Shown here one piece after another: positions 1 through 32,371 of a DNA stretch of 64,000 bases. The DNA is from an uncultured Pelagibacteraceae bacterium. Its GTDB lineage: Bacteria > Pseudomonadota > Alphaproteobacteria > Pelagibacterales > Pelagibacteraceae. Under the pieces are notes generated by a model that did not search any database, was not told where the DNA came from, and saw only the letters and a program-made list of their open reading frames with translations. The translations under genes and the position numbers were made by a program. Numbering within the stretch: position 1 is the stretch's first letter; every line of letters starts with the position of its first letter. Location: positions 62,001-126,000 of the forward strand of contig CACPOL010000001.1 in assembly GCA_902635545.1 (NCBI GenBank), read 5' to 3'.

Positions 1-389
1 TTTAAATTCGCATCCAATCTTTTTTCTAACTTTGGTTTACCTTTATAGGGTTCAACAAACTTTTTTTTATTCCATAATCTTTTATAATCATCTCCTTTAA
101 GTTTTCCTGTGCAAAAAAGGTAAACAACTATTTCTTTTTCTTTAATTTTTTTTCCTACTAAAGATGACATATTGTTCATTCCTTCTTTCCAAGCACAATC
201 GCTGGATGGACCATCATGAGTAGATTGGCCATGATTATAGATTAATAAAATTTTATTATGAGGATCCTTTATTTTTTGATCTTTTGAATAACTTACTTTG
301 TTAGTCAAAAAACCACTCTTAGTCATTTTATCAGCAAGAACACTTTTGTTAAAAAAAATAATAATAAATAATATTAACAATTTTTTCAT
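1..389 (-). CDS. secreted protein of unknown function, 5' part only
   Basis: The ATG lies at 389-387 and the frame stays open to the window edge, giving 129 visible residues. It opens with a Sec signal peptide (two lysines, a hydrophobic stretch and an SVLA cleavage site near residue 19). Further in is the segment LLIYNHGQSTHDGPSSDCAW; a hydrophobic strand running into NHGQ resembles the start of an alpha/beta-hydrolase core, but no catalytic serine motif is visible in this part. The ATG overlaps the TGA of mtnP by 4 bp (ATGA), so the two genes are very probably co-transcribed and translationally coupled. I do not recognise the family with certainty. It is placed with adenine/methionine salvage only by position. 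Confidence 0.75.
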   Translation of the reverse strand, partial: MKKLLILFIIIFFNKSVLADKMTKSGFLTNKVSYSKDQKIKDPHNKILLIYNHGQSTHDGPSSDCAWKEGMNNMSSLVGKKIKEKEIVVYLFCTGKLKGDDYKRLWNKKKFVEPYKGKPKLEKRLDANL

Positions 390-1258
390 TTATTTAAAAC
401 TCTCCCAGCTATTGTATTAAGTTTATCTTTTGTTTTTTTTGTTCTTTTTTCAGGTGCAGTAATAATGGCTACATCTAAACAATTATTAGTTGGATCTTTA
501 GGATCAATATGATCTTCGAAATTTTCTATTAGGTTTTTAATCATGTTTTTTGCTTTAGCAGCATTACCTAATAAAACTTTCACTACTTGTTGAACATCAA
601 CGTTTTCATGATCAGGATGCCAGCAATCATAATCTGTGACCATAGATACTGAAGCATATCTTATTTCTGCCTCTCTTGCTAATTTTGCTTCTGGCATATT
701 GGTCATTCCAATCACATCTGCTTTCCATGATCTATATAGATTTGACTCTGCTAAAGTTGAAAATTGTGGTCCTTCCATGACAACATATGTTCCATTTCTT
801 TTATACTCAATTTTTTCTTTTTTAATTGCTTCCTCGCAAGCATTCATTAAGCCATTAGAAGTAGGATGTGCCATAGATACATGTGCAACAATTTCATCAT
901 CAAAAAATGTTTTTTTTCTTGCAAATGTTCTATCAATAAACTGGTCAACAATTACAAATTTTCCAGGTGGCAAATCCTCTTTTAATGAACCTACTGCTGA
1001 GATTGAAACAATATCTGTTACACCTAGTTGTTTAAGTGCATCAATATTTGCTCTAAAATTTATTTTTGATGGAGAAACAAAATGACCTCTGCCATGTCTT
1101 GGCAAAAAATAAACTTCCTTACCTTGAAAATTTGTTTTTAAAATTTGATCAGATGGCTTACCCCAAGGTGTATTTAAATCAATTAATTCTCTTTCTTTAA
1201 ATTCCTCAACATCATATAAGCCACTTCCACCAATAATTGCTAACTTATTATTTACCAT
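386..1258 (-). CDS. mtnP: S-methyl-5'-thioadenosine phosphorylase
   Basis: Phosphorolytic cleavage of 5'-methylthioadenosine to adenine and 5-methylthioribose-1-phosphate, in the cytoplasm. The 290 residues match the usual length of PNP/MTAP family 2 enzymes. Visible motifs are GGSGLY (10-15), the phosphate-binding PRHGRGH (53-59), MEGPQFST (161-168), MTNMPEAKLA (185-194) and TDYDCWH (208-214). The MTNMPEAKLA segment with Asp in TDYD fits adenosine-type rather than guanosine-type substrates. It is divergent from apt with only 39 bp between the start codons. The product adenine is Apt's substrate, so a shared promoter region makes sense. A secreted protein gene follows with a 4 bp overlap. Confidence 0.95.
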   Translation of the reverse strand: MVNNKLAIIGGSGLYDVEEFKERELIDLNTPWGKPSDQILKTNFQGKEVYFLPRHGRGHFVSPSKINFRANIDALKQLGVTDIVSISAVGSLKEDLPPGKFVIVDQFIDRTFARKKTFFDDEIVAHVSMAHPTSNGLMNACEEAIKKEKIEYKRNGTYVVMEGPQFSTLAESNLYRSWKADVIGMTNMPEAKLAREAEIRYASVSMVTDYDCWHPDHENVDVQQVVKVLLGNAAKAKNMIKNLIENFEDHIDPKDPTNNCLDVAIITAPEKRTKKTKDKLNTIAGRVLNK

Positions 1259-1297
1259 GTTAAAAAAATAATTTATCTATATATAACTCAAAGAATT

Positions 1298-1825
1298 ATG
1301 AATTTAAAAGAATTTATTAGATCTATTCCAGACTATCCAAAGAAAGGAATTTTATTTAGAGATATTACAACTTTGATAAAAGATAAAGATGCTTTCAAAG
1401 AAACTATTAATCAAATTATTGAAAAATCAAAAAAATACGAATTCAATAAAATTGCAGCGATAGAGTCTAGAGGTTTTGTGTTTGCCTCTGCTATTTCTTA
1501 TGTCTTAGAAAAGCCACTCATAATGTTAAGAAAAAAAAATAAATTACCTGCCGAAACTCATTCAGTTGATTTTGAACTTGAATATGGAACTGCAACAATT
1601 GAAGTCCATAAAGATTCTATTTGTGAAGGAGATAAAGTTTTAATTATTGATGATTTAATTGCAACAGGTGGAACAGCCGAAGCAGCAGCAAAACTTGTTA
1701 AAATATCAAAAGGTGAAGTCGCAGCTTTTATATTTGTAATAAATTTGTTCGATCTAGAGGGGTGTAATAATTTAATTAAAAAAGGTTTTAAAATTGAAAA
1801 TTTAATCGAATTTCCAGGACATTAA
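1298..1825 (+). CDS. apt: adenine phosphoribosyltransferase
   Basis: Converts adenine plus PRPP to AMP and diphosphate. The 175-residue protein has the bacterial Apt length and start (IPDYPKKGILFRDIT at 10-24), the ESRGF segment (56-60) and the PRPP-binding motif VLIIDDLIATGGT (114-126). It stands divergently from mtnP, which releases adenine, so the pair forms a compact adenine-salvage unit. Its 3' end overlaps the convergent glycosyltransferase gene by 4 bp, leaving no room for a separate terminator. Confidence 0.96.
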   Translation: MNLKEFIRSIPDYPKKGILFRDITTLIKDKDAFKETINQIIEKSKKYEFNKIAAIESRGFVFASAISYVLEKPLIMLRKKNKLPAETHSVDFELEYGTATIEVHKDSICEGDKVLIIDDLIATGGTAEAAAKLVKISKGEVAAFIFVINLFDLEGCNNLIKKGFKIENLIEFPGH

Positions 1826-2754
1826 TTAAAAAATTTTCCTCTATAATTTGATTTCATACCAACTATAGAAGAAAATAATCCTAAAAATCTATAAAGATAT
1901 TTATCTTTTTTTTCAAAGTCAAAAATAATTAAATAAAGAATTATTCTAAATAAAGATTTAAAAAACTTTCCACCTGTTTTAAATATTGCATAGAAATAGT
2001 TATAATTTTTTTTATAAAAATAAAAATGAGACCACATCCAATGCCAATTTCTTAATTTTTCTGCTTCAATTTCAAATGAGGGATCTTTTGTGAATGAGCT
2101 CTTAAATCCCAAATGATGAACTTTAAGATCTTTTGATAAATATATATTTTTTTTATTGTTGGTTAATTGTTTACATAAATCATATTCTTCAAAATATAAA
2201 AAAAAATTTTCGTCAAAAATTGAAGTTTTTTTGATAATTTTTAAATTTAGAAGCATTGCACAACCAACTACCCATTCGACTTTAATTAGAGATTTTTTTT
2301 TTTCTTCAAAATAATTTTTTCTAAATCTTTCATTTTTTTGAGAATTAAAATATCCAGCAGGCATGTAAACTTTATCATTTATATATTGACATCCAATTAT
2401 AGAAAATTTTTTATTATTTAAAATAACTTTTAAATTTTTACAAAAAAATTTATCTAAAACCGTATCCGGATTTAGAATTAAAGCATAATCGGTTTTTGTT
2501 TTTTTTATGCCAAAATTGTTACCTTTCCCATATCCCAAATTTTTACCTGTACAAAAAACCTTAAGATTTTTAAACTTTTTTAAAAAAAATTTTTCATCTT
2601 TAAATTTTGATGAATTTTCAACAATTATTACATTTATCTTTTTATCTATCGAATTTAAACAATTTAAAAGAATCTTTTTGTTAGTTAGATAAGTTACTAT
2701 TATAATTGTTATATTTTTTATGTTATTCATTATATATAAATCAATTATATACAT
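1822..2754 (-). CDS. family 2 glycosyltransferase (rhamnosyltransferase-like)
   Basis: GT-A fold transferase of 310 residues, likely adding a sugar to a surface polysaccharide on the cytoplasmic face. Visible are the nucleotide-sugar strand IIIVTYLT (17-24), VIIVENSS (42-49), NLGYGKGNNFGI (72-83), the NPDT variant of the DXD region (95-98) and, further on, FFLYFEEYDLC, which is typical of rhamnosyltransferase-like GT2 proteins. The first eight residues may not be translated: a second ATG at 2730 begins MNNIKNITII, closer to the usual start, and neither ATG has a clear ribosome-binding site. Divergent from rfbB with a 28 bp gap. Donor and acceptor cannot be read from the sequence. Confidence 0.85.
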   Translation of the reverse strand: MYIIDLYIMNNIKNITIIIVTYLTNKKILLNCLNSIDKKINVIIVENSSKFKDEKFFLKKFKNLKVFCTGKNLGYGKGNNFGIKKTKTDYALILNPDTVLDKFFCKNLKVILNNKKFSIIGCQYINDKVYMPAGYFNSQKNERFRKNYFEEKKKSLIKVEWVVGCAMLLNLKIIKKTSIFDENFFLYFEEYDLCKQLTNNKKNIYLSKDLKVHHLGFKSSFTKDPSFEIEAEKLRNWHWMWSHFYFYKKNYNYFYAIFKTGGKFFKSLFRIILYLIIFDFEKKDKYLYRFLGLFSSIVGMKSNYRGKFFN

Positions 2755-2782
2755 TAAAGAAATAAATTGTAAAAACTTTTAA

Positions 2783-3802
2783 ATGAAAAAAATAATTGTT
2801 ACTGGTGGCCTCGGTTTTATAGGAAGTAATTTAATAGAATTACTTTTAAAAAAAAAATATTTTGTAATTAATATAGATAAAATATCTTATTCATCAAATT
2901 TTTATAACACTAGAGAATTTAAAAAAAATAAAAATTATAAATTTATAAAATGTGATATTAAAAGTAAAAAAATTGAAAAAATTTTCAACAAATTCAAACC
3001 AATTTGTATATTTAACCTAGCAGCCGAAACTCATGTTGATAGATCTATAGATGGACCAAAAAGTTTTATAGAAAGTAATATAGTTGGTGTATTTAATATT
3101 TTAGAAACTTTTAGAAAATTTGTAAAAAAAAACAAAAAAACAAAATTAATTCATATATCAACTGATGAAGTTTATGGTGATGTTTTAAGTGGAAGATCAA
3201 ATGAGAATTATCCCTATAACCCTAGTTCTCCATATGCTGCAAGTAAAGCATCATCAGATCATTTGGTTTCATCTTATGTAAGAACTTTTAATATTCCAGC
3301 AATTATAACTAATTGTTCAAATAATTATGGACCCAAACAGCATCCCGAAAAATTAATTCCAAAATTAATATACAATATTTTGAATAACAAGACTTTACCT
3401 ATATATGGAAGAGGGACAAACTCAAGAGAATGGATATATGTGAAAGATCATTGTGAAGCTTTATTAAAAGTTTTCAAAAAAGGAAAAATAGGAAATTTTT
3501 ATAATATTGGATCAAATAAAAATCTTAATAATTTAAATATTTGTAACAAACTTATTAAAATAGCTAAAAAGAAAATAATATTGGGCAGAAATGTAAAAAT
3601 TAAGTTTGTAAAAGATAGGCCAGGTCATGATTTAAGATATGCCCTTAACAGTAATAAAATAAAAAAAGAACTTAAATGGAGTGCAAAAACTGATTTATCA
3701 GTTGGTCTCAGCAATACTTTTTCATGGTACTTGAATAATAAAAGATATTATTCATCATTATCTAAAAAAGATATTGTCAAAAGATTAGGTAATAAAAATT
3801 AA
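2783..3802 (+). CDS. rfbB: dTDP-glucose 4,6-dehydratase
   Basis: Extended short-chain dehydrogenase of 339 residues. It has the NAD-binding TGGLGFIGS (7-15), the AAETHVDRSI segment (80-89), the catalytic STDEVYG (126-132; Thr, Asp and Glu are those specific to dTDP-glucose dehydratases) and YAASK (151-155) with the active-site Tyr and Lys. The region after it (CSNNYGPKQHPEKLIPKLI) is also characteristic. It would form dTDP-4-keto-6-deoxyglucose for deoxysugar synthesis. The partner genes rmlA, rmlC and rmlD are not next to it, so the final sugar is unknown. A sulfotransferase gene follows after 9 bp and is probably in the same transcript. Confidence 0.92.
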   Translation: MKKIIVTGGLGFIGSNLIELLLKKKYFVINIDKISYSSNFYNTREFKKNKNYKFIKCDIKSKKIEKIFNKFKPICIFNLAAETHVDRSIDGPKSFIESNIVGVFNILETFRKFVKKNKKTKLIHISTDEVYGDVLSGRSNENYPYNPSSPYAASKASSDHLVSSYVRTFNIPAIITNCSNNYGPKQHPEKLIPKLIYNILNNKTLPIYGRGTNSREWIYVKDHCEALLKVFKKGKIGNFYNIGSNKNLNNLNICNKLIKIAKKKIILGRNVKIKFVKDRPGHDLRYALNSNKIKKELKWSAKTDLSVGLSNTFSWYLNNKRYYSSLSKKDIVKRLGNKN

Positions 3803-14805: not shown

Positions 14806-15822
14806 ATGAAAACAAAATTATTTATTACGGGTTCTTCTGGTTTTATTGGTTTTCACGTTGCTAAAAGATATCTAGATAAAGGTTTTAAAGTGCGTGGATT
14901 TGATTCAATGAATAATTACTATGACGTTCAATTAAAAAAATCTAGATTAAAGATTTTAAAAAGATATAAAAATTTTTCCTTTACTAAAGGAAATTTAGAA
15001 AATCAAAAAATTTTAAATAATTCTATTAGTAAATTTAAGCCTTCAATAATCATTCATTTAGCTGCACAAGCAGGAGTGCGGTATAGTATTGAAAATCCAA
15101 AAATTTATTTAAATTCAAATATAATAGGAACTTTTCATATAATTGAGTCTGCTAAGAAATTCAAAATTAAACATCTTATTATAGGATCAAGTTCATCAGT
15201 TTATGGAGCAAATAAAAAATTTCCATTTCAAGAAATAGATAAAACTGACAGTCAGATAAGTTTCTATGCAGCTACAAAAAAATCAACTGAAAGTTTAGCG
15301 CATTCTTATTCAAGCTTATGGAAAATACCTATTACTATATTAAGGTTTTTTACTGTTTATGGTCCTTGGGGTCGACCTGATATGGCTTACTTTAAATTCA
15401 CAAAGAATATTTTAAATGGAAAAAAAATAGATGTTTATAATAAAGGTAAAATGTATAGGGATTATACTTATATAGACGACATAGTTGATGGGATATTTAG
15501 ATTAACAAATAAAATTCCAAAACTAAATTCATCAAAAAAATATAAAAATGATAGCTTATCTCATATTGCACCAATTAGAATTTTAAATATAGGTAATACA
15601 AAAAAAGTTCTTCTTTCAGAATTTATAAAAGCTATTGAAGAAAAATTAGGAAAAAAAGCAGTTAAAAATTTCTTGCCTATGCAAAAAGGTGATGTTCATT
15701 CGACTTTATCAGATACTAAACTTTTAAGAAAGATAACTGGTTATAACCCAAAAACAAAATATCAAGACGGAGTTATGAAGTTTTTAAATTGGTATTTAAA
15801 TTACTATAACTTAAAGAACTGA
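14806..15822 (+). CDS. UDP-glucuronate 4-epimerase (NAD-dependent SDR)
   Basis: Converts UDP-glucuronate to UDP-galacturonate for surface polysaccharide. Visible are TGSSGFIG (8-15), AAQAGVRYSIENP (86-98), SSSSVYG (128-134), YAATKK (154-159, active-site Tyr and Lys) and FFTVYGPWGRPDMA (181-194). The AGVRYS and GPWGRPDMA blocks separate this family from UDP-glucose epimerases. The 338-residue length is typical. Its 3' end overlaps the convergent ald gene by 12 bp. It stands apart from the two glycan blocks. No UDP-glucose dehydrogenase is visible to supply its substrate. Confidence 0.9.
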   Translation: MKTKLFITGSSGFIGFHVAKRYLDKGFKVRGFDSMNNYYDVQLKKSRLKILKRYKNFSFTKGNLENQKILNNSISKFKPSIIIHLAAQAGVRYSIENPKIYLNSNIIGTFHIIESAKKFKIKHLIIGSSSSVYGANKKFPFQEIDKTDSQISFYAATKKSTESLAHSYSSLWKIPITILRFFTVYGPWGRPDMAYFKFTKNILNGKKIDVYNKGKMYRDYTYIDDIVDGIFRLTNKIPKLNSSKKYKNDSLSHIAPIRILNIGNTKKVLLSEFIKAIEEKLGKKAVKNFLPMQKGDVHSTLSDTKLLRKITGYNPKTKYQDGVMKFLNWYLNYYNLKN

Positions 15823-16923
15823 TAATGGATCAACATAATCATGACCAAACGCTTCTGCAACAGCCTTATATGTCACTTGTCCCTTACAAACATTTAGTCC
15901 TGCTAAAAAATTTTTATCTTCTTTTAAAGCTTTTTGATAACCTTTATTTGCAAGTCTAGTTAAATAAGGAAGAGTTGCTTTATTCAATGCAAATGTAGAG
16001 GTTCTAGGAACTCCACCAGGCATATTAGCAACACAATAATGAACTACATCATCAACTATAAATGTTGGATCTCCATGAGTTGTTGGCTTACTTGTTTCAA
16101 CACAACCTCCTTGGTCAATAGCTACATCTACAATAACTGATCCTCTCTTCATTAATTTCAGCATATCTTTTGTTACTAATTTAGGAGCCTCTGCTCCTGG
16201 TATTAAAACACCTCCAACTAACAAATCTGCTTCAGCAACTAACCTATTTAGATCAATTTTATCACTTAGCTCTGGTATAATTTTATCTCCAAATATTTGA
16301 ACTAGTTGTTTTAATCTTGCTTCAGATTTATCAACAACATGAACTTTAGCTCTCATGCCAGTGGCAATTATTGCTGCATTCTCTCCCACTACACCACCCC
16401 CTAAGATTAATACATTTGCTGGCTCACCACCTGGTGCTCCTCCCAATAAAACTCCTCTACCTTTTTGATTTTTTTCTAAGCAATGTGCTCCGGCTTGAAC
16501 CGACATACGTCCTGCAACAGCACTCATCGGTGCAAGTAAAGGAAGTCTTCCATTATTATCTGTAACAGTTTCATAGGCTATATTTATACTTTTAGATTTA
16601 ATTAATCCCTCAGTAAGCTCTTTTGCTGCTGCTAAATGAAGATAAGTATAGACAATCTGATTTTCTCTAATCATATCTACTTCAACTTTTTGGGGCTCTT
16701 TTACTTTTACTATTATTTCTGCATCATCAAAAATATCTGACGCTCTATCCACTATCTTCGCACCCGCTTTTATGTATTGATCGTTTTCAAAACCAGCTTC
16801 AAAACCTCCGTTGTTTTCGACTAAAACTTCATGTCCTTCAGATATTAAGGTTTTTACACTTTCAGGTGTTAATCCTATTCTATTTTCTTGAGGTTTAATT
16901 TCTTTGGGTACACCTATACGCAT
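15811..16923 (-). CDS. ald: alanine dehydrogenase
   Basis: A 370-residue NAD-dependent enzyme interconverting alanine and pyruvate plus ammonium. It has the family N-terminus MRIGVPKEIKPQENRIGLTP, the YTYLHLAAA block, the Rossmann loop ILGGGVVG followed by AAIIATGMRA, and VVDVAIDQGGC, which carries the catalytic Asp. It lies 40 bp downstream of the class III aminotransferase on the same strand. In taurine and hypotaurine degraders (for example Paracoccus and Rhodobacter) the same pair regenerates the pyruvate used as amino acceptor and releases ammonium, so here Ald very likely recycles alanine made by its neighbour. Confidence 0.95.
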   Translation of the reverse strand: MRIGVPKEIKPQENRIGLTPESVKTLISEGHEVLVENNGGFEAGFENDQYIKAGAKIVDRASDIFDDAEIIVKVKEPQKVEVDMIRENQIVYTYLHLAAAKELTEGLIKSKSINIAYETVTDNNGRLPLLAPMSAVAGRMSVQAGAHCLEKNQKGRGVLLGGAPGGEPANVLILGGGVVGENAAIIATGMRAKVHVVDKSEARLKQLVQIFGDKIIPELSDKIDLNRLVAEADLLVGGVLIPGAEAPKLVTKDMLKLMKRGSVIVDVAIDQGGCVETSKPTTHGDPTFIVDDVVHYCVANMPGGVPRTSTFALNKATLPYLTRLANKGYQKALKEDKNFLAGLNVCKGQVTYKAVAEAFGHDYVDPLSVL

Positions 16924-16963: not shown

Positions 16964-18310
16964 CTAATTTTTTTGATTCCTTTGATAGTTAGTAATACCT
17001 GTTCTAAGTTTATCAATTATCTCATCAATATGTTTTTTTTCACAAATAAATTGCGGAGCTATAATTAAACAATCGCCAGTAGCCTTAAAATTCACTCCTG
17101 CTTCATAACAAGCTTTAAAACATTCAAACCCAGCTTTACCAGGTTTGACTTTCATTTTCATATCAATTCCACCCATCATTCCGTATCCTCTTATATTTTC
17201 AACAGACTCCAAGTCTTGAAGAGAAAACAAACCTTTCTGAAAATAAGGAGCTAAATTTTTTGCTCTATTAAAAATATCATCTTTTTCAAAAATATCTTGA
17301 ACTGCTAAAGCTGCCGCAACAGCAACAGGAATTCCAGAATAGGTATAACCATGAAACAATTCAATTGATCCTTTTGGAGAAGAGTCCATTACAGAGTCAT
17401 AAATTTCATCTTTGCATGCAACGACTCCCATAGGCACAACACCATTTGTAGTCGCTTTAGCCATAGTCATTATATCAGGTGTAACTCCATATTCGATACT
17501 TGCGAAAGATGAGCCAGTTCTACCCCATCCTGTAATTACCTCATCAAAAATTAAAAGTATTCCATGTTTGTCACATATCTCTCTTAATTTCTGTAAATAT
17601 CCTTTTGGTGGGACTAATGTTCCAGTAGATCCTGCAATCGGTTCAACTATACAAGCTGCAATATTCTCTGGTCCAAAGTTAGTTGCAATTCTTTCTAAAT
17701 CATCTGCCCTATCAGCACCTGTTTCTGGTTGACCACTTACAAATTTATGCTCTGGTAAGTGAGTATGCCTCATATGTTGAACTCCTGGCATTAATACACT
17801 TGCAAAAGTTTTAACGTTATTAATCATTCCGCCTACTGAGATACAACCAATATTCATTCCATGATATCCTCTTTCTCTTCCTACAAATCTAAATCTTTCT
17901 GCCTTGCCTTTAGATCTATGATAGGCGATTGCAATCTTAAGTGCAGTTTCAACTGCTGTTGATCCACAGATTGTATAAAAAATTTTATTTAAATCTCCTG
18001 GAGTATGTTTTGAAATTCTTGTAGCTAATTCAAACGATCCGCCAAAGCCTTGTTGAAATGGCTGAGCATAATCTAGAGTTTCTAATTGTTTAGTAACTGC
18101 TTCTGTAATTTCTTTTCTACCATGTCCCAATGGATTGCAAAATAATCCTGAACTAGCATCTATTTGTGTTTTACCATGATGTGTTTTTAAATAGACTCCT
18201 TTTGCTTCAGTTATCAATCTTGGATTTGCCTTAAAATCTTTGTTTGAGGTAAAAGGCATCCAATGTTCATTTAAAGAATTAGGCACCGAAGTTCTTTTTT
18301 CTGAGCTCAT
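16964..18310 (-). CDS. class III omega-amino acid:pyruvate aminotransferase (taurine/hypotaurine/beta-alanine type)
   Basis: The 448 residues start with NEHWMPFTSNKDFK, the usual opening of omega-amino acid:pyruvate transaminases. Other features are ICGSTAVETALKIA (PLP phosphate binding), RERGYHGMN, IFDEVITGWGRTG with the PLP-pairing Asp, and MAKATTNGVVPMG with the Schiff-base Lys. The family moves the amino group of taurine, hypotaurine or beta-alanine to pyruvate. The gene faces away from the tauABC transporter and is followed by ald, so taurine or hypotaurine is the best guess, producing sulfoacetaldehyde or its sulfinate counterpart. Beta-alanine or GABA remain possible, because sequence alone does not fix the substrate. 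Confidence 0.88.
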   Translation of the reverse strand: MSSEKRTSVPNSLNEHWMPFTSNKDFKANPRLITEAKGVYLKTHHGKTQIDASSGLFCNPLGHGRKEITEAVTKQLETLDYAQPFQQGFGGSFELATRISKHTPGDLNKIFYTICGSTAVETALKIAIAYHRSKGKAERFRFVGRERGYHGMNIGCISVGGMINNVKTFASVLMPGVQHMRHTHLPEHKFVSGQPETGADRADDLERIATNFGPENIAACIVEPIAGSTGTLVPPKGYLQKLREICDKHGILLIFDEVITGWGRTGSSFASIEYGVTPDIMTMAKATTNGVVPMGVVACKDEIYDSVMDSSPKGSIELFHGYTYSGIPVAVAAALAVQDIFEKDDIFNRAKNLAPYFQKGLFSLQDLESVENIRGYGMMGGIDMKMKVKPGKAGFECFKACYEAGVNFKATGDCLIIAPQFICEKKHIDEIIDKLRTGITNYQRNQKN

Positions 18311-18488: not shown

Positions 18489-19430
18489 ATGAAAAAAATA
18501 ATTAGTTTTCTTTTAGGATGTTTTGTAGCTCTTAACTTAAATATTTCAGTTGCAAATTCTGCGGCTAATGAAGTTAGAGTTGCTTACTTTCTAGAATGGC
18601 CAAGTCCAAATCTAGAGGACATGCAAAAAAAAGCATTTGCTAAAGCTCTTGGAGTTCCAGTTAAATGGACAAACTTCACTAATGGTGGTGCAATGACTGA
18701 TGCAATGTTAGCGGGTGATATTGATATATCTTACTCTCAAGGGTTAGTACCATTTATCAATGCTGTAAAATCAAAAGCTCCTATTAAGCTTGTAGATATA
18801 GCGATGGAATATGGAATGGGAGGAACAACTTGTGTTACTTCTAATGCTTCAGGAATTACAAAGGCTAATGCTACTGAATTAGAGGGCAAAAAAGTTGCTG
18901 TTCCATTAGGTACAATGGCTGAGTATGTTTTTGATGAAAGTATGAAAGTTGTTGGTGCAGATAGAAAAAAAATGGATATCATTCAAATGGACCCTGAAGA
19001 AGGTGCTGCTGCGTTGGTAAGTGGTGATGTTGTTATGGCATGTTTATTTGGCGGTAACTCTATTAAAGCTGCAACAGCAGTTGGTTCTAGACTACTTACA
19101 GTTCAAGAAGCTAGAGACGCTGGTATCTTAGGTATAGATATTACTTCAGTGACTACAAAGTTTATGAAGGAAAATCCAGGTATGCTTAGAACATTTATAG
19201 AAGTAACTCATGAAGCTAATGCAAGATATAGAGCTGGAAAAAGCGATATGAATGCAATGTCAAAAGCTTCAGAAATGAAAGTTGCTGATATGAAAGAAAC
19301 TTTAAGTGGCTTCAAATTCCTAACTCCGGAAGAGACTAAAAAATCAATGGAGAGTGGTAATCTTGATGCATTCTTAAAAGGAATGGGCACACCAAGAGGA
19401 AACGTAGACACTAGTTTCTTACCTCTATAA
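18489..19430 (+). CDS. tauA: taurine-type ABC transporter, periplasmic substrate-binding protein
   Basis: The 313-residue protein has a Sec signal peptide of about 25 residues (ISVANSAA) and a mature sequence typical of the SsuA/TauA/NMT1 family: VRVAYFLEWPSPN, then FTNGGAMTDAMLAGDIDISYSQGLVPF and a second-lobe block GKKVAVPLGTMAEY. It would capture taurine or a related sulfonate or amine in the periplasm and hand it to the TauC channel. A strong hairpin terminator follows, so it is probably made in excess over tauB and tauC. It faces away from a transaminase gene. The exact ligand is inferred from context. Confidence 0.88.
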   Translation: MKKIISFLLGCFVALNLNISVANSAANEVRVAYFLEWPSPNLEDMQKKAFAKALGVPVKWTNFTNGGAMTDAMLAGDIDISYSQGLVPFINAVKSKAPIKLVDIAMEYGMGGTTCVTSNASGITKANATELEGKKVAVPLGTMAEYVFDESMKVVGADRKKMDIIQMDPEEGAAALVSGDVVMACLFGGNSIKAATAVGSRLLTVQEARDAGILGIDITSVTTKFMKENPGMLRTFIEVTHEANARYRAGKSDMNAMSKASEMKVADMKETLSGFKFLTPEETKKSMESGNLDAFLKGMGTPRGNVDTSFLPL

Positions 19431-19519: not shown

Positions 19520-20317
19520 ATGAGTGATCTTATTTCACAAAATCTTAATATGGTTTTTAAAACTCCAAAAGGAGAAACAGTTCATGCGTTAAAAGATTTA
19601 AACTTTACTTTAAAAAAAGGAGAGCTTCTGACTGTTCTTGGTCCCTCAGGATGTGGAAAAACAACTTTATTAAATATAACTGCTGGTTTTATAAGACCAA
19701 CATCCGGAACTATCACATTAAATAATAAAGAAATTGATGGACCCGGAGTTGAACGAGGTATGGTTTTTCAACAAGGAGCTTTATTTGAATGGTTAACAGT
19801 CTCAGAAAATGTAAATTTTGGATTAAGAATGAAAAAAAAAGATCCAATCGAGACTCAAAAAAAAGTTGATGAGTGGTTAGAAATTGTTGGACTCAAAGGA
19901 TTTGGAAATACACCAACTTATCAATTGTCTGGGGGTATGCAACAGAGAGTGGCCCTTGCAAGATGTCTTATCAATGATCCAGACTTAATTTTAATGGATG
20001 AACCATTAGGAGCTCTTGATGCTTTGACAAGAGAAAAAATGCAGTCTCTTGTTCTTAAAATTTGGAAAGAGACTGGAAAAACAATAATTTTAATCACACA
20101 CTCAGTTGAGGAAGCTTTATTACTTGGAGAAAGATTATACGTGATGGCTCCACGACCAGGGCGTATTCACAAAGAATATAATCTTCCTTTTGCTTCTATG
20201 GGACTTAAAAAAGATTTAAGAGAAATTAAAAAAAATAAAGATTTTTCAGCCAAACGAGAAGAAATACTAGAAATGATTTGGAATATGGAAGAAGAAATTA
20301 TGGGAAAAGAAATTTAA
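19520..20317 (+). CDS. tauB: taurine-type ABC transporter, ATP-binding protein
   Basis: A 265-residue ABC ATPase that powers sulfonate uptake. The Walker A loop GPSGCGKTT lies at about 40-48, the Q loop in VFQQGALFEW, the signature LSGGMQQRVALA near 136-147, Walker B LILMDEPLGALD, and the switch His in LITHSVEEALLL. The closest named families are TauB/SsuB/nitrate-type ATPases. It is separated from tauA by a terminator and joined to tauC without any spacer (stop at 20317, ATG at 20318). Confidence 0.93.
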   Translation: MSDLISQNLNMVFKTPKGETVHALKDLNFTLKKGELLTVLGPSGCGKTTLLNITAGFIRPTSGTITLNNKEIDGPGVERGMVFQQGALFEWLTVSENVNFGLRMKKKDPIETQKKVDEWLEIVGLKGFGNTPTYQLSGGMQQRVALARCLINDPDLILMDEPLGALDALTREKMQSLVLKIWKETGKTIILITHSVEEALLLGERLYVMAPRPGRIHKEYNLPFASMGLKKDLREIKKNKDFSAKREEILEMIWNMEEEIMGKEI

Positions 20318-22243
20318 ATGCTTACTCAAATAGTTACCTTTTTGATTTTTTTTGCAGTCGTTGGCTGCATTCTTTATGGAAGACGTTTAATCAAAACTGA
20401 GAAAGTTGATGCAGTTTTTGGTAACCCCGAAAGAGCTTTAGGTGGCACGCATTGGGTAATTGTTGGAAGCAGTTTTCTTCTTTTAATTTGGCTGTACTAT
20501 TCTTGGGATATTGCAAAAGGATTTTATCCAAAATCCGCTAACGAACTTTGTCAAGTTGCAAAAGTAAATGACTCTTTGCTAGGATTAAAATATCAATTTC
20601 CAATTGAGCAAAGAGAATTAAAAAGTACATCACAGATTAAACAAGAAAATAAAAATCTAAAGAAAATTTCAATTGAAATTCAGAATTCCAATGAACTAAA
20701 TAATCAACAAAAAACAATCCTGATAGGTTTTATAAGTAAAACTACTCAGTTAATTCCACTATTAACTAATGAGGATTTAATTGAAAATGAAACTAAACAA
20801 AAAATAATTGAAATCACTGGCAGAATTAACCTTTTAACCGAGAATTTTCAAAAATTAGATTATCCATTCGAGACTGAACAAGAATTAAATGACAGACTTA
20901 AAGCTGTAGGTGAAGAAGGTGGCTGGGGTATCACAAAAGTGAATGCAGGATCAGGAACTATTGAAAATACTATTGAAGTACCTTTGATACCAGCTACAAG
21001 TAGAGGCTTAAAATTTCATACTGCTGCGCAGGAGTTAAATTTAATAAGTGATGAATTTTTTAAATTACGTAACCATAATCCACAATTTAAAAATAAAATT
21101 AAAGATCTTAAAAATGAAATTAAATTATACAGAAAAAGCTTGGATGATAGTCAAGAGGTTGCCTCTACTTATGCAAAAAATATTGTAAAAATTGCAAGAA
21201 GGATTGAGTTTGCCAGTATCTACCCTCCAAATGCATTAAATAAAATGCAGGAGGCAATTATAAAATTTGATAATGCACAAATACAAGCTCAAGGCGGACT
21301 TAGATTTATTGATATTTTTTTATTTCCAGCTGGAACAATTGTTGCTAGCGGCCCAAGTTGTTCAGAACAAGGATCAGGTAGATGGCTTCCTAAACCTTCT
21401 GATACTTTCAATAAATTTATTCTAATGTCTAAACCAAGCGTTGGTTATAAAGATATTCCTCTTTTATGGATAAAAATGGTTGATGTTAGTAAAACCATTG
21501 GTTTTATTTTACCTGATTGGATAGCAGATATTTTGCCAGGAGAATATCCAGTACACACAACAGATGGGATAGTTAAACAAAATTTCAAAGGTTCAGTTTT
21601 GAAAGTTGTAACTGGTGATTTTAAATTATTTAAAATTCCAGTTCCTTATGGACATATATGGGATTCTTTTATGAGAGTTTTTTTAGGATTAGTATTTGGA
21701 ATAATCATTGGTGTTCCGTTAGGATTGTTTATGGGATTAAATAGATTTGCTAAAGGTTTTTTTGACCCTTTGATTGAACTCTATAGACCTGTTCCTCCTC
21801 TTGCATGGGCGCCACTAATTATTTCCGTATTAGGAATTGATAATACTGGAAAAGTGTTTTTATTATTTATGGTTTCATTATCAATAATGATAATTTCAGC
21901 AAGAGCTGGTGCTTCAGGAACTCAACTTTCAAAAATCCATGCTGCTCATTCTCTAGGTGCATCGAAAAAACAAATACTAAGATATGTAATTTTTCCTAAC
22001 TCTTTACCAGAAATTTTGACTGGTATTAGGGTTGCAGTAGGAATGTGCTGGGGGACATTAGTTGCAGCTGAATTCCTAGCTGGAACAACTGGTATTGGTT
22101 TTGTTGAAAATGTTGCAAAAAAATACTTTCAATATGAGGTTATCTGGATAACGATATTCATTATGGGTATGCTGGGACTTTTATTCGACGTTACTTTAAG
22201 AAAAATAATCGATAAAACTATTCCATGGCGTGGAAAAGGATAA
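20318..22243 (+). CDS. tauC: taurine-type ABC transporter permease with a long N-terminal extension
   Basis: The C-terminal ~200 residues (from about 440) are a normal BPD permease with the ATPase-contact EAA loop AAHSLGASKKQILRYVIFPN near 544. The protein has 641 residues, whereas TauC/SsuC permeases have about 250-290. The extra N-terminal part has two membrane segments (about 5-22 and 45-65), then some 330 mostly hydrophilic residues with helical, coiled-coil-like stretches rich in Lys/Glu/Asn (such as 100-180 and 255-300) that would lie in the periplasm. It may bind or stage the substrate, or dock TauA. The tail overlaps the next gene by 19 bp. Function as permease is certain by motif; the extension's role is unknown. 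Confidence 0.88.
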   Translation: MLTQIVTFLIFFAVVGCILYGRRLIKTEKVDAVFGNPERALGGTHWVIVGSSFLLLIWLYYSWDIAKGFYPKSANELCQVAKVNDSLLGLKYQFPIEQRELKSTSQIKQENKNLKKISIEIQNSNELNNQQKTILIGFISKTTQLIPLLTNEDLIENETKQKIIEITGRINLLTENFQKLDYPFETEQELNDRLKAVGEEGGWGITKVNAGSGTIENTIEVPLIPATSRGLKFHTAAQELNLISDEFFKLRNHNPQFKNKIKDLKNEIKLYRKSLDDSQEVASTYAKNIVKIARRIEFASIYPPNALNKMQEAIIKFDNAQIQAQGGLRFIDIFLFPAGTIVASGPSCSEQGSGRWLPKPSDTFNKFILMSKPSVGYKDIPLLWIKMVDVSKTIGFILPDWIADILPGEYPVHTTDGIVKQNFKGSVLKVVTGDFKLFKIPVPYGHIWDSFMRVFLGLVFGIIIGVPLGLFMGLNRFAKGFFDPLIELYRPVPPLAWAPLIISVLGIDNTGKVFLLFMVSLSIMIISARAGASGTQLSKIHAAHSLGASKKQILRYVIFPNSLPEILTGIRVAVGMCWGTLVAAEFLAGTTGIGFVENVAKKYFQYEVIWITIFIMGMLGLLFDVTLRKIIDKTIPWRGKG

Positions 22244-24267: not shown

Positions 24268-26076
24268 TTATTTCCTTAAGTAAATGTCCCAAAAACTTAT
24301 TGAGTCATGCTTTAGAAAATTTTTTTTAATATGTTGATCTACTAAATATAACTTTTTATTTAAAGGTATATCCCAATAATCTTTAGGACCGTTTGCTATA
24401 ATAAAGTTAGTATTTTTCAATTCGGCAACTATTTTTTTTTGTTTATCAAAGGAACTTGCGCTCCAAATAAAATAATACTTCGTACAACTTTTTTTTCTTA
24501 AAATATAGTAGAAAGCTGCATCATTTGAAAATAATTGAATACAATTATAATCTTTTACAAGGGATAGTGTTTTTTCTTTTAGAGAAATTTCTTTTTTATT
24601 TAAAAAAAATTCATCTGGCATTTTAACAAACTCTTTAAATCTAGTTTCATAATTATTTATATTATTGAAATTAATTCTTATAGGAAAAAAAACAAAAATA
24701 AGAATTAATAGGAAGGTAAATAAATTTTTTGATAATTTACTTAAATAAATTTTAGATTTAGATATTTTATAAAGTAATAAGTAAGAAAAATAAATTGAAA
24801 AAAATATAATTGGGAAACCAAAAACATGTTTTATATGAGCTCCATCAGATCGGCCTAATGCGTACAAATAACTTCCAAAACTAGTGATTGCTAATAAAAG
24901 CAAAATCTTTTTAAATAAATTAGAAAATTTTTTTTCTGATTTAAATATTAAACTTACGGAAAAAATTAAACAAAATATTATAGAAATAAGAGTTTTCGTT
25001 GCTCTCGAAGAATTTGGCTCTTGACTGAATGGAGTTGGGTGAATTAAGCCATGCACATAATTCATTTCTTTATAAATTGATATAGTATTCTCTTTAAAAT
25101 GGTAAAATTCATCTTGAAAAGTAAAATAAAAAGTTATCCAAGAAAGGCAAATGAATAAAGAAAGAATAAAGATTTTTTTATATTCTTCTTTAAAAAATAA
25201 GTAAATAAGAATTACAACTATTAACAAATTACAAACTAATCCTCTGTCTATCCCCCATATAATTGAAAATAAACTAAGTAAAGAAATAGATAATAATATA
25301 AGCGTTTGTTGTTTTTTCATTAATAAAGCAATAAACAATATTAATAGTACGACAATGGGTAGTTCTCTAAATGTTATTAAATCTATTGTAGTTAAATCGT
25401 AATCACCCAAACTTAAAAAAACAAATGAATTGATAAGAAAAAAAAATTTTTTTAAATATTTATCTAAAGTTATAAAATTTGTTAAAAGTAAACTTAAAAT
25501 CAATAAAGAAAACTTAAGAAAAAAAATTAATAACAAATCAGAATATCTTGATAGACCAATACTAATATTTTGAAAAATCTGCCAAATAAATTTAGTCGCC
25601 AATGTTTCGTAAAAAATTCCAACGGTTACATAAGATCCAGACCACAAAGATCCATCTATTAGACTTTTATAGGCTGAACTTAATCTTTGGCCATCATGAT
25701 AACTATCTATTTTATGTTCGGGAAAATTAATGGAAAGAAAATCAAAAAAAAGGAAGGTTAAAATTATGAGAAATACTACAAATACATCTTTTGAAGTTGA
25801 AACGTTTGAGTTATCTTTTTTTAAAAAAACTTTTATTTTTTGTAGAAAATTTGAATTATAAATGAATTTAATAGCTAAATATGTTATTAAAGGAAGTCCT
25901 ATAAAAGAAAAATAACGAAATATATCATTTTTAGCATCATGATTACTTAAGGAATAAACACCAATTATTTTAGGATCAGAGTATGGAAAACTAATATGTT
26001 TCCATAAAAAAGTGCTTAAAAAAATTGAACAGATGATAGAAATAATTAAAACTAATCTTTCTTTTTGATATTTCAT
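24268..26076 (-). CDS. polytopic membrane protein, probably GT-C type glycosyltransferase-like
   Basis: A membrane protein of 602 residues from the ATG at 26076, with at least ten hydrophobic segments and an extracytoplasmic loop FPEHKIDSYHDGQRLSSAY, where the acidic and histidine residues recall the first loop of GT-C enzymes. No named family is recognised. A longer in-frame start at 26115 would add 13 residues but would overlap the divergent GT2 gene start at 26099. The shorter start leaves 22 bp between the two. It faces away from a dolichol-phosphate-mannose-synthase-like gene, which fits a lipid-linked sugar pathway, with this protein using the polyprenyl-phosphate sugar outside. That pairing is an inference. 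Confidence 0.65.
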   Translation of the reverse strand: MKYQKERLVLIISIICSIFLSTFLWKHISFPYSDPKIIGVYSLSNHDAKNDIFRYFSFIGLPLITYLAIKFIYNSNFLQKIKVFLKKDNSNVSTSKDVFVVFLIILTFLFFDFLSINFPEHKIDSYHDGQRLSSAYKSLIDGSLWSGSYVTVGIFYETLATKFIWQIFQNISIGLSRYSDLLLIFFLKFSLLILSLLLTNFITLDKYLKKFFFLINSFVFLSLGDYDLTTIDLITFRELPIVVLLILFIALLMKKQQTLILLSISLLSLFSIIWGIDRGLVCNLLIVVILIYLFFKEEYKKIFILSLFICLSWITFYFTFQDEFYHFKENTISIYKEMNYVHGLIHPTPFSQEPNSSRATKTLISIIFCLIFSVSLIFKSEKKFSNLFKKILLLLAITSFGSYLYALGRSDGAHIKHVFGFPIIFFSIYFSYLLLYKISKSKIYLSKLSKNLFTFLLILIFVFFPIRINFNNINNYETRFKEFVKMPDEFFLNKKEISLKEKTLSLVKDYNCIQLFSNDAAFYYILRKKSCTKYYFIWSASSFDKQKKIVAELKNTNFIIANGPKDYWDIPLNKKLYLVDQHIKKNFLKHDSISFWDIYLRK

Positions 26077-26098
26077 CAATACTATTTTAAACTTTAAT

Positions 26099-26818
26099 AT
26101 GAGTTTATCAATCATAATCCCTTTTTATAATGAAATCGATCAATTGAAATTTACTTTAAAAAAATTATCAACTTTAAAAAAAAAAATTAAAAATTATGAA
26201 ATTATTTTTATTGATGATTTTAGTAATGATGACTCAGAAAAATTTATTAAGAAATATACAAAAAAAAATTCTTATATCAAAATTTTTAAAAATAAAAAAA
26301 AAGGACTTGGGTCTGCTATTGAAGAGGGTATAAATAGATCAAAACTAGATTATGTTTGTATTTTCATGTGTGATATGTCTGATGATATTAACGATATTTC
26401 AAAATATTATAAAATAATTAAAAAAGAAAAAATGGATGCCGTCTTTGGTACCAGATTTTCAAAATTTTCAAAAATAAAAAATTATCCCTTATTAAAACTA
26501 ATATTAAATAGAATAGCAAATAATTTTATAAAATTAATTTTTCTTTCAAAATATAATGATTTTACTAATGCTTTTAAAATGTATAAAAGAAAAACTTTAA
26601 TAAAACTTTTACCAGTTGTATCAGAAAATTTTAACGTTTTTTTAGAATTGCCTTTAAAAATAATTACAAGAAAATATTCATTTAAGATAACCCCTATTAA
26701 TTGGAATGGTAGAAAATATGGTGAATCTAAATTTAAAATAAAAGAAATAGGTTCTATGTATATTTTTACTTTATTATATTGTTTACTAGAAAAAATTTTA
26801 TTAAATAAGCATAAATAA
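26099..26818 (+). CDS. family 2 glycosyltransferase, polyprenyl-phosphate sugar synthase-like
   Basis: The 239-residue GT-A protein has the opening SIIIPFYNEIDQL, FIDDFSNDDS (nucleotide binding), NKKKGLGSAIEEGI and CDMSDD in place of the DXD region. This series matches DPM1-like enzymes that attach mannose or glucose to a polyprenyl phosphate. No pair of C-terminal membrane helices is present, only a hydrophobic tail near the end (YIFTLLYCLL). Its stop overlaps the next gene's ATG by 1 bp, so three surface-sugar genes form a transcript. Confidence 0.85.
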   Translation: MSLSIIIPFYNEIDQLKFTLKKLSTLKKKIKNYEIIFIDDFSNDDSEKFIKKYTKKNSYIKIFKNKKKGLGSAIEEGINRSKLDYVCIFMCDMSDDINDISKYYKIIKKEKMDAVFGTRFSKFSKIKNYPLLKLILNRIANNFIKLIFLSKYNDFTNAFKMYKRKTLIKLLPVVSENFNVFLELPLKIITRKYSFKITPINWNGRKYGESKFKIKEIGSMYIFTLLYCLLEKILLNKHK

Positions 26819-30114: not shown

Positions 30115-31026
30115 ATGCTTTCTAACAAAGAAATAATTTGTCCAAACAATTTATTGGATATAGCTCATAAAAAAAAGGGTATTAAAGCTGGAATAGTTAA
30201 TGCAGGAAAACCCCTGCCAATGTTATCAGTTCAAGATGCGGTCAAAGAAAGCTTAATTGAACCAATTTTTATTGGAGACAAAAAAGAAATTTTAAAATGT
30301 GCTGAAGACTTAAAATGGGATATTTCAGATTATCAAATTATAAATGAACCAATTGAAAATAAAACAGCTGCAATTGCTGCTAAGTTAGCAAGCCAAAATA
30401 AAATTAGAATAATTGTAAAAGGACATATTCATACTGACATTTTAATGAAAGAAGTTTTGAAAAGAGAATATAATTTATTGAATAAAACTAGGTTAAGTCA
30501 TATCTGGCATATGACTATTGATAAGGAAGATCCTCCTTTAATCATTACTGATGGTGCATTAAATGTTTTGCCCAATGTAAAAACAAAAATGCATATACTT
30601 AAAAATGTGATAAATTTTTCACATAGAATAGGAATTGAGAGGCCAAAAGTTGCAATTTTATCAGCAACTGAAGAAGTATTAGATAGTGTACCAAGTTCTG
30701 TTGAAGCTGATGAACTCACTAAATTGGCTAAGGATGAAAATCTTGAAGCAGATGTTTTTGGACCTATGGCTTTTGATAATTGTATTTCAAAAAAATCTGC
30801 TGCAATTAAGGGTATTAAAAATAATGTTGCAGGTATTGCGGATATATTATTAGTTCCAAGTGTTGAAGCTGGTAACGCACTGGTCAAAATGTTAATTTAT
30901 TTTAGTGGTGCTTGTGCAGCGGGAATTGTTGTTGGTGGCAAAGTCCCAGTAGTAATAACTAGTCGTTCAGATGAAGCTCCTGCTAGATTAGCATCTATTG
31001 CTGCTGCGGTTGTAGCTTTAGATTAA
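30115..31026 (+). CDS. phosphate acyltransferase (Pta/Ptb family)
   Basis: A 303-residue enzyme of the phosphate acetyl/butyryltransferase family, transferring an acyl group between CoA and phosphate. Family segments are VKGHIHTDILMKEV, ITDGALNVLPNV, ILSATEEVLDSVPSS, DVFGPMAFDNCIS and VPSVEAGNALVKMLIYF. The length and the missing N-terminal extension fit the short Ptb/Pta form. No ackA is adjacent. It precedes the HisD/HpsN-like gene (58 bp gap). In sulfonate degraders Pta converts the acetyl-phosphate made by Xsc to acetyl-CoA; that role here is a contextual guess. Confidence 0.87.
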   Translation: MLSNKEIICPNNLLDIAHKKKGIKAGIVNAGKPLPMLSVQDAVKESLIEPIFIGDKKEILKCAEDLKWDISDYQIINEPIENKTAAIAAKLASQNKIRIIVKGHIHTDILMKEVLKREYNLLNKTRLSHIWHMTIDKEDPPLIITDGALNVLPNVKTKMHILKNVINFSHRIGIERPKVAILSATEEVLDSVPSSVEADELTKLAKDENLEADVFGPMAFDNCISKKSAAIKGIKNNVAGIADILLVPSVEAGNALVKMLIYFSGACAAGIVVGGKVPVVITSRSDEAPARLASIAAAVVALD

Positions 31027-31084: not shown

Positions 31085-32371
31085 ATGACAATTAAATACT
31101 TAAAAAAATCACCCAAGACATCTTCAACTGATGATAATAAAACAACAGAAATAGTTAAAGAATTATTAAAAGAAATAGAAAATTCAAAAGAGGAAGCATG
31201 TATTAATCTTACAAAGAAATTTGATAAATATGAAGGAGAAATAGTTGTTTCAAAAGAGAAAATAGAAAAAATTAAAAAAGAACTAGATCAAAAAACTAAA
31301 GATGATATTCAATTTTCATACGACAGAGTAAGAAAATTTGCTGAAGCTCAATTAAAAAATTACGGACAAGATTTTGAAGTAGAACTATCACCAGGATTAT
31401 ATGCTGGTCAAAAACTTATACCAGTAAATACAGCTGGATGTTATATACCTGGTGGAAGATATGCACACATAGCTTCAGCTGTAATGAGTGTTACGACTGC
31501 AAAAGTAGCTGGTGTAAAAAATGTAATAGCCTGTAGCCCTCCGAAAGAAAAAATAGGTGCTCACCCAGCTATAATTTATACAGCTGATTTATGTGGTGCT
31601 GATAAGATTTTAAATCTAGGGGGTGTTCCTGGAATTGCAGCAATGACTAACGGGTTGTTTGATAATCCTCCGGCCGATATTCTAGTAGGTCCTGGTAATC
31701 AGTTCGTTGCTGAAGCAAAAAGAATATTATTTGGAAAAGTTGGTATTGATCTTTTTGCTGGTCCAACAGAGATAGCTGTAATTGCAGATGACAAAGCAGA
31801 TCCTGAAATGGTTGCAGTTGATTTAGTAGGTCAAGCGGAACATGGTTACAATTCTCCAGCATGGTTATACACCACAAGTAAAAGATTAGCTGAAAAAGTT
31901 TTAAAAAGGGTTCCTGAGTTAATATCTGAATTACCAGAGCTTCCAAGAAAAAGTGCTGAGGCTGCTTGGAGGGATTATGGTGAAGTTATTCTTTGCGATA
32001 CTGATGAAGAAATGGCAAAAATAAGTGATGAATATGCTCCAGAACATTTAGAAGTTCAAACACAAAACCTTGAGTGGTTTCATAAAAGACTTAAAAATTA
32101 TGGATCGTTATTTATTGGTGAAGAAACAACTGTTGCTTACGGAGACAAATGCTCAGGTACAAATCACATTTTACCTACTAAAGGGGCAGGAAGATATACA
32201 GGTGGTTTGTTTGTTGGTAAATTTATCAAAACACTAAGTTTCCAAAGAATGACTAAAGAATCCACTAAAACTGTTGGTGCAGCGTGTGCAAGAATATCAA
32301 GATACGAAGGAATGGAAGCACATGCTAGAACTGGCGATGTGAGACTTAGAAAATACGGTTATTCAAATTAG
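31085..32371 (+). CDS. histidinol-dehydrogenase family protein; candidate sulfopropanediol 3-dehydrogenase (HpsN)
   Basis: A 428-residue zinc-dependent NAD dehydrogenase that oxidises an alcohol to an acid in two steps. The HisD catalytic and metal residues are present: QAEHG (about 249-253; Gln and His zinc ligands), APEHLE (about 318-323; catalytic Glu-His), Asp in YGDKCSGTNHILPT and His in EAHARTGDVRLR. Unlike HisD, the segment after QAEHG reads YNSPAWL instead of the usual PDSQVIL, and the gene is not in a his operon. A divergent HisD homologue, HpsN, oxidises dihydroxypropanesulfonate to sulfolactate; the neighbouring pta-type and tau-type genes make that attractive. Plain histidinol dehydrogenase cannot be excluded. 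Confidence 0.8.
   Translation: MTIKYLKKSPKTSSTDDNKTTEIVKELLKEIENSKEEACINLTKKFDKYEGEIVVSKEKIEKIKKELDQKTKDDIQFSYDRVRKFAEAQLKNYGQDFEVELSPGLYAGQKLIPVNTAGCYIPGGRYAHIASAVMSVTTAKVAGVKNVIACSPPKEKIGAHPAIIYTADLCGADKILNLGGVPGIAAMTNGLFDNPPADILVGPGNQFVAEAKRILFGKVGIDLFAGPTEIAVIADDKADPEMVAVDLVGQAEHGYNSPAWLYTTSKRLAEKVLKRVPELISELPELPRKSAEAAWRDYGEVILCDTDEEMAKISDEYAPEHLEVQTQNLEWFHKRLKNYGSLFIGEETTVAYGDKCSGTNHILPTKGAGRYTGGLFVGKFIKTLSFQRMTKESTKTVGAACARISRYEGMEAHARTGDVRLRKYGYSN

Follow-up and report, generated by a model that had tools for sequence, protein, structure and literature searches.

A predicted helical domain in the first periplasmic loop of a SAR11 taurine-type permease and its possible role in docking of the binding protein

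Canonical permeases of the TauC/SsuC/NrtB type, such as E. coli TauC, CmpB (9u9z) and an NrtB-type protein (8w9m), share with the long TauC described here the same core with its EAA-type loop, RPVPPLA and an LPxPxxV-type motif after the first transmembrane helix (TM1), and an operon with the genes of a substrate-binding protein and an ATPase. Ordinary E. coli TauC works without a domain of the kind reported below. In the maltose transporter MalFGK2, which carries one copy of the P2 domain, P2 occupies the loop between a pre-core helix and the first core helix of MalF, and is accompanied by extra N-terminal helices. PF14785 (MalF_P2) was found at residues 100-260 of E. coli MalF, after the third helix (73-91) and before PF00528 (298-501). 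One study of this transporter gives residues 91-271 as the MalF-P2 region and describes direct contact of the segment 240-249 with MalE (PMC3150292). No description of an insert in TauC was found in a search of open-licence papers. The SAR11 bacteria, which rank with the most numerous cells of the ocean, subsist on dilute substrates such as taurine, and studies of how they take these up have focused on binding proteins; a conserved permease domain would be a concrete second uptake component beside these.

The window, by which we mean the whole 64,000-nucleotide stretch of DNA analysed, contains a long form of tauC (20318..22243, + strand), a single uninterrupted open reading frame for a taurine-type ABC importer permease that begins immediately behind the stop codon of a gene for a TauB-type ATPase. 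As the original prediction had stated, its 641 aa are over twice the family size, about 2.3 times the length of E. coli TauC (275 residues). PF00528 at residues 465-627 is the sole Pfam domain above cut-off (87.9 bits vs a cut-off of 26.4) and lies in the permease core (residues 444-641; 21647..22240, +), together with the cytoplasmic loop KIHAAHSLGASKKQIL, which we take to be the motif named EAA. The best NCBIfam match is the TauC model NF007545, at 181.6 bits under its curated cut-off of 342, and covers residues 444-640 only, from profile position 77 onward. By its NF007545 equivalog score the protein is a TauC-type permease but not a canonical TauC. At its end, tauC overlaps the next gene, of the glucose/sorbosone dehydrogenase type, by 19 bases (22225-22243); by eye, a similar gene follows tauC in locus L113, and not in L112 or L115.

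Upstream of tauC lie genes for a tauA-like substrate-binding protein of 313 aa (18489..19430, +), whose SsuA/TauA NCBIfam matches all fall under the curated cut-offs, and for a tauB-like ATPase of 265 aa (19520..20317, +), with the taurine ATP-binding subunit as its best NCBIfam match (270.2 bits vs a cut-off of 357). Comparison of 18 long-form loci (L110-L124 and L187-L189) showed matches to tauA, tauB and the tauC core lying together, in one order, in every case; nine of the loci were from SAR11, six from other and three from Rhodobacteraceae-like genomes. Divergent from this operon is a gene for an AptA-type omega-aminotransferase (16964..18310, -; NF052567, 581.8 bits, cut-off 500), possibly the deaminating step for taurine, and the window also encodes an alanine dehydrogenase-type protein (15811..16923, -; PF05222 and PF01262) and a phosphate acetyl/butyryl transferase-type protein (30115..31026, +; PF01515). 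Visual inspection of the N-terminus picked out an xsc-like gene near tauABC in L120, L121, L187 and L189. The genome from which the window comes has, elsewhere than in the window, an Xsc match above the curated cut-off, which 28 of 41 genomes of the genus exceed. For the strain HTCC1062, uptake of 14C-taurine and the presence of tauABC are reported (PMC3090418). Although the TauA, TauB and TauC scores are all under the taurine equivalog cut-offs, taurine is the likely substrate because of the operon, Xsc, the genes of the AptA, alanine dehydrogenase and phosphotransacetylase types, and the uptake by HTCC1062. Two further genes of the window may be recorded here. Beside the phosphotransacetylase-type gene, 31085-32371 encodes a protein of the histidinol dehydrogenase family (PF00815), which might, at a guess, be a sulfonate-related dehydrogenase rather than HisD; at 24268-26115 (-), adjoined by glycosyltransferase and epimerase genes, is a hydrophobic-looking protein of 615 aa with no Pfam match at E up to 1e-5.

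We asked whether TauC owes its length to the joining of two unrelated genes, either in a faulty assembly or through a recent fusion event. A search that kept 80 loci out of 546 relatives, all Pelagibacteraceae, Pelagibacterales or Pelagibacter with 88-93% identity, showed that 78 of the 80 encode 640-641 aa, and that the remaining two (L061 and L064) run to contig ends. Of 120 match rows from the search of the order, 112 had frames of at least 600 aa, including that of G476 with one in-frame TAG; seven of the eight shorter rows abut contig ends (G503 and G571 twice each, G533, G468 and G479), and the eighth is a chimeric-looking contig of G424. There (contig 1, positions 1-3000, L208), tauC joins the last part of the aminotransferase gene, which elsewhere is divergent upstream of tauA; the junction is probably a chimeric contig or an inversion, and it is the one locus that speaks for a joining of genes. 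Against this, six further alphaproteobacterial genomes share the architecture at 33-34% identity, and a search of 397 other genomes of the phylum gave no match to the first part of TauC. A sequence error or assembly fusion was thus ruled out by the full-length frames in the 78 loci and 112 rows, and a fusion of either kind is extremely improbable. The original prediction had also allowed for homologues in which the first part is a separate gene; no stand-alone copy was found in the genomes searched, which covered the class, the order, the phylum, and the families of G213 and G117.

Within the order, residues 1-441 were matched in 118 of 197 genomes, and in 115 of the 149 with a completeness of 90% or more and a contamination of 5% or less, so the gene is absent from some SAR11 genomes. 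When 58 genomes of the order were searched with E. coli TauC, each of the 21 hits at E < 1e-40 lay in a frame of at least 635 aa, and therefore no short TauC orthologue was seen in these genomes; this fits an extension present in all SAR11 orthologues. At the level of the class, nine of 385 genomes matched: three, among them the genome of the window, belong to its genus, and six carry the distant long forms mentioned above; at the level of the phylum, the window's own genome was the only match among 398. Homologues of the insert region thus occur elsewhere, as long forms in other alphaproteobacteria. In the family of G213, 35 of 61 genomes matched, and six of the 35 frames were shorter than 600 aa. 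Among the matches in this family, a short frame in G1087 is cut by a contig end, those in G1131 and G1088 start at base 5 or 6 of their contigs, that in G1133 ends early inside the permease core, and G1130 retains TauC only from ATFSTLANP onward, behind sequence that does not resemble the N-terminal part of TauC, which marks it as a broken or chimeric copy. All three genomes of the G117 family matched, and further long forms (L187, L188 and L189) were found in a third family, f23. Phage and plasmid origins were tried and rejected: tblastn gave no match in phages to the N-terminal part of the window protein, and none in plasmids to that of L087. Ten stretches of viral contigs matched, none of them a relative.

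We next examined where in the protein the additional residues lie. The original prediction had placed two extra membrane helices and a hydrophilic region ahead of the normal permease core. Hydropathy analysis of the window TauC gave helices at residues 1-19/22 and 41-59 and then none above threshold until 454-472. The first of these, residues 1-22 (20318..20383, +), is an extra N-terminal helix with no counterpart by hydropathy in E. coli TauC or in the short TauCs L148, L151 and L156, and the positive charges behind it would give it an N-out orientation. The second supposed extra helix (44-64) instead matches the normal TauC TM1 with its FGD-type motif, so that one of the two extra helices stands and the other does not. 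Residues 27-62, within the FGN/FGD motif and canonical TM1 at 26-65 (20393..20512, +), aligned without gaps with the FGD motif and TM1 of short alphaproteobacterial TauCs of the 288-aa type (hhalign E 1.1e-4, probability 56%). With the columns shuffled within the same blocks, none of 200 controls reached this score (best 24.3 vs 27.0). For residues 1-76 against short TauCs, hhalign gave E 3.8e-4 and a probability of 36%. At the other end, residues 351-398 aligned with the LPxP stretch behind TM1 of a second group of TauCs, the Big_9-type forms described below (E 3.2e-4, probability 39%). The conserved stretch in this segment, RWLPKPSD (residues 355-362; 21380..21403, +), would correspond to LPxPxxV, the motif behind TM1 of ordinary TauC. 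These two anchors delimit an inserted ectodomain, predicted to be helical, at residues 66-354 (20513..21379, +), and beyond them the second half of the TM1-TM2 loop is also lengthened (residues 363-443; 21404..21646, +).

As counter-evidence, a plain MAFFT alignment sets E. coli TM1 near residues 372-400, that is, behind the insert. We rejected this placement and retained the insertion reading, since the segments 363-443 and 372-412 alone gave no TM1 match in short or Big_9-type forms by hhalign. The hydropathy of the TM1 candidate is modest: in 20 long forms, its best windows (1.21-1.86) overlap those of 363-443 (1.05-1.69); in L119 and L124 the TM1 candidate is below threshold, and in L124 a window at 389-407 is above it. 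A membrane-lying helix within 363-443 is possible. With moderate statistical support at both ends, the profile alignments indicate that the extra mass has been inserted into the loop joining canonical TM1 to TM2, which the topology would put on the periplasmic side. The hydrophilic region would thus lie inside the first periplasmic loop rather than ahead of the permease core, and the idea of a new extracytoplasmic domain on TauC is supported. The distance between the TM1 and TM2 hydropathy windows is 394 residues in the window protein, compared to 40 in the 288-residue L148 and 44 in E. coli TauC, neither of which has the extra helix, 167 in the Big_9-type L146 and 193 in MalF.

The order of elements in the window TauC, with TM1 (41-59), the insert and PF00528 (465-627), is that of MalF. 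With PF14785 the window protein gave no match up to E = 1, and MalF, the positive control, scored 206 bits. Judged from these profiles and the topology, the TauC insert is in the topological slot of MalF P2 but is no P2 homologue. P2 belongs to another family, with a profile of 164 positions, and comes with two extra helices, whereas the TauC insert has about 290 residues and one extra helix; it is also predicted to be helical and presumably present in two copies per transporter, unlike MalF P2.

To obtain a view of the insert itself, residues 64-362 were modelled with AlphaFold from 60 sequences (mean pLDDT 67.5). The well-predicted part contains eight helices of 14-25 residues and the low-confidence part two three-residue strands. 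The region had been described as rich in coiled coil; the model predicts a helical bundle rather than one long coiled coil. A whole-protein model, for which all input rows were at least 88% identical, had a mean pLDDT of 51 and a poor core. Pfam returned nothing at cut-off in the insert of the window protein, the best match being IFT20, which resembles coiled-coil noise, and an internal duplication of two four-helix halves was not supported (hhalign probability 2%). Of 443 Foldseek matches with E of 10 or less, not one reached 0.001. Comparison of the model by VIA-align raised the alternative that the insert is a ligand-sensing or regulatory domain of the helical bimodular (HBM) type, which would bind a small molecule or a partner and throttle the transporter. 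McpS (Z 9.6, rmsd 4.1-4.2 over 137 residues), McpZ (Z 8.8) and TorS (Z 7.8) held ranks 2, 3, 5 and 22, all over the same model range of 28-264, and TorS is listed in complex with TorT, so such a helical sensor is able to bind a protein partner in the periplasm. However, the top rank (Z 11.3) went to an unrelated gp41-mimic chimera, and for helical bundles a VIA-align Z under about 13 may reflect only a common arrangement, here with a model of the above pLDDT. The moderate structural resemblance to the HBM domains of McpS and TorS, which are not attached to permeases, is of a kind common among helical bundles and has no sequence match beside it; no HBM family was among the 25 listed of 36 weakly matching Pfam families from 17 sequences. 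A sensor role is the main rival reading and is rated unlikely.

Mean conservation in 79 SAR11 sequences was 0.99 at both roots of the insert (residues 67-100 and 344-362), 0.988 in the core and 0.88-0.91 between the roots. In 96 close pairs of 72 sequences, pN/pS was 0.012 at residues 66-100, 0.092 at 101-343, 0.006 at 344-362, 0.033 at 363-443 and 0.013 in the core; the insert is under purifying selection. Each root carries an invariant cysteine, Cys78 upstream (codon 20549..20551, +) and Cys348 downstream (codon 21359..21361, +), present in all 20 diverse and all 79 close sequences; residues 66-443 contain no other cysteine. In the AlphaFold model the cysteine-bearing roots are of low confidence, with no disulfide visible. 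This pattern bears on two structural roles. One is a scaffold that would bridge the periplasm or anchor the transporter to peptidoglycan, to the outer membrane or to a second copy, and place it near porins; the insert is large and predicted to be helical, and its middle varies more than its roots, as might be expected of a spacer. Yet no Pfam domain reached cut-off in the window insert, and the different insert that relatives have in this slot is far smaller, so that a fixed reach is not indicated; we regard a scaffold as decidedly unlikely. Alternatively, the insert could mainly stabilise the TauC dimer or aid membrane insertion, with no direct part in transport. An extra N-terminal helix accompanies both types of TauC insert, and the P2-bearing MalF has two, as such a role might lead one to expect; still, the roots match the permease core in constraint, more than a passive clamp seems to need, and we give this explanation little credence.

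We favour, at a probability of roughly 0.55, the reading that insert, extra helix and lengthened loop together turn a taurine TauC into a permease with a MalF-P2-like platform for docking or gating TauA. In the proposed arrangement, a helical domain of about 290 residues would have been inserted in the first periplasmic loop (TM1-TM2) of the permease of a TauABC transporter, with an extra N-terminal helix added and the remainder of that loop lengthened. Two copies of the domain, one per TauC protomer, would stand above the substrate path, each closed at its roots by a C78-C348 disulfide. Like MalF P2, they might hold and orient loaded TauA, and the domain may help to couple TauA docking to the ATPase cycle. 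Docking or gating of TauA, put forward already in the original prediction, is the best guess because the insert is in the MalF-P2 slot and the order tauA, tauB, tauC is kept in all 18 long-form loci; the uptake at ultra-low concentration that the prediction added would be a speculative further benefit. We also performed a mirror-tree analysis on the window and 79 of 90 loci, the other 11 being dropped for one of the four genes missing or outside the length limits. The partial correlation with TauA was 0.79 for the insert vs 0.73 for the core, and that of the insert with TauB was 0.57. This analysis does not single out the insert, since 0.79 is hardly above the 0.73 of the core. That result, and the ability of ordinary TauC to function with no such domain, weigh against the platform reading.

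A second type of insert was found among the nearest core relatives that are not long forms, in TauCs of 421-445 aa (L146, L147, L149 and L157, not counting an over-long start). Like the long TauC, these Rhodobacteraceae-type proteins, of about 420-445 residues in total, have the TauABC gene order and, by hydropathy in L146 and L147, an additional N-terminal helix. Their insert looks beta-rich and sits in the same slot, between TM1 and the LPxPxxV motif. Big_9 (PF17963) was matched in all three proteins scanned (L146, L147 and L149) at 24.5-25.4 bits vs a cut-off of 23.6, covering just the last 25 of 89 profile positions, so that the term Ig-like rests on a short match. The window protein had no Big_9 match in the Pfam scan, and helical and Big_9-type inserts had no profile similarity to each other (hhalign probability 0.7%). 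Among the 120 genomes of f23, L146 was matched in 62 at E up to 1e-40, at one place each: 52 matches were full length, three were long helical forms and seven covered the core part only. At least 80% of L146 was also covered in six plasmid records (H1-H6); f23 is termed Rhodobacteraceae-like here because its Big_9-type TauC has its nearest matches in plasmid records from Ruegeria, from Paracoccus and from a strain of the Rhodobacteraceae. Two relatives, WP_170544074.1 of Ruegeria conchae and WP_074970014.1 of Paracoccus aminovorans, neither covered by the Big_9 scan, matched L146 across the insert at 66-68%.

In a tree of 60 permease cores, which took in 16 of 17 short loci (L161, with no permease by pattern, was omitted), one branch (100/100) split off the 20 long forms, and another (97/98) held the 23 Big_9-type forms, with short forms adjoining. 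Of these 23, 19 were assigned by full-length match to L146 and not by Pfam; the tree is midpoint-rooted, its bootstrap had not settled, and the branch to the long forms is long, at 3.22. Since the helical and Big_9 types fall in separate core clades and are without profile similarity, the TM1-TM2 slot of TauC was probably filled independently by the two insert types. One loop filled by unrelated inserts offers a natural experiment on the purpose of the MalF P2 slot. We tentatively extend this to a wider proposal, doubtful as yet: the TM1-TM2 loop could be a reusable docking slot of type I importers, filled independently at least twice in TauC, by a helical bundle and an Ig-like domain, and a third time in MalF, by P2, each time with one or more extra N-terminal helices, and building a second platform for the binding protein that would let the importer operate where substrate or binding protein is in very low supply. 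As a separate observation on ABC permeases of unusual size, one of the loci collected (L082; G000:C1:150982-151404) encodes a 707-aa protein that resembles two fused ABC permeases, with an ATPase-like gene alongside.
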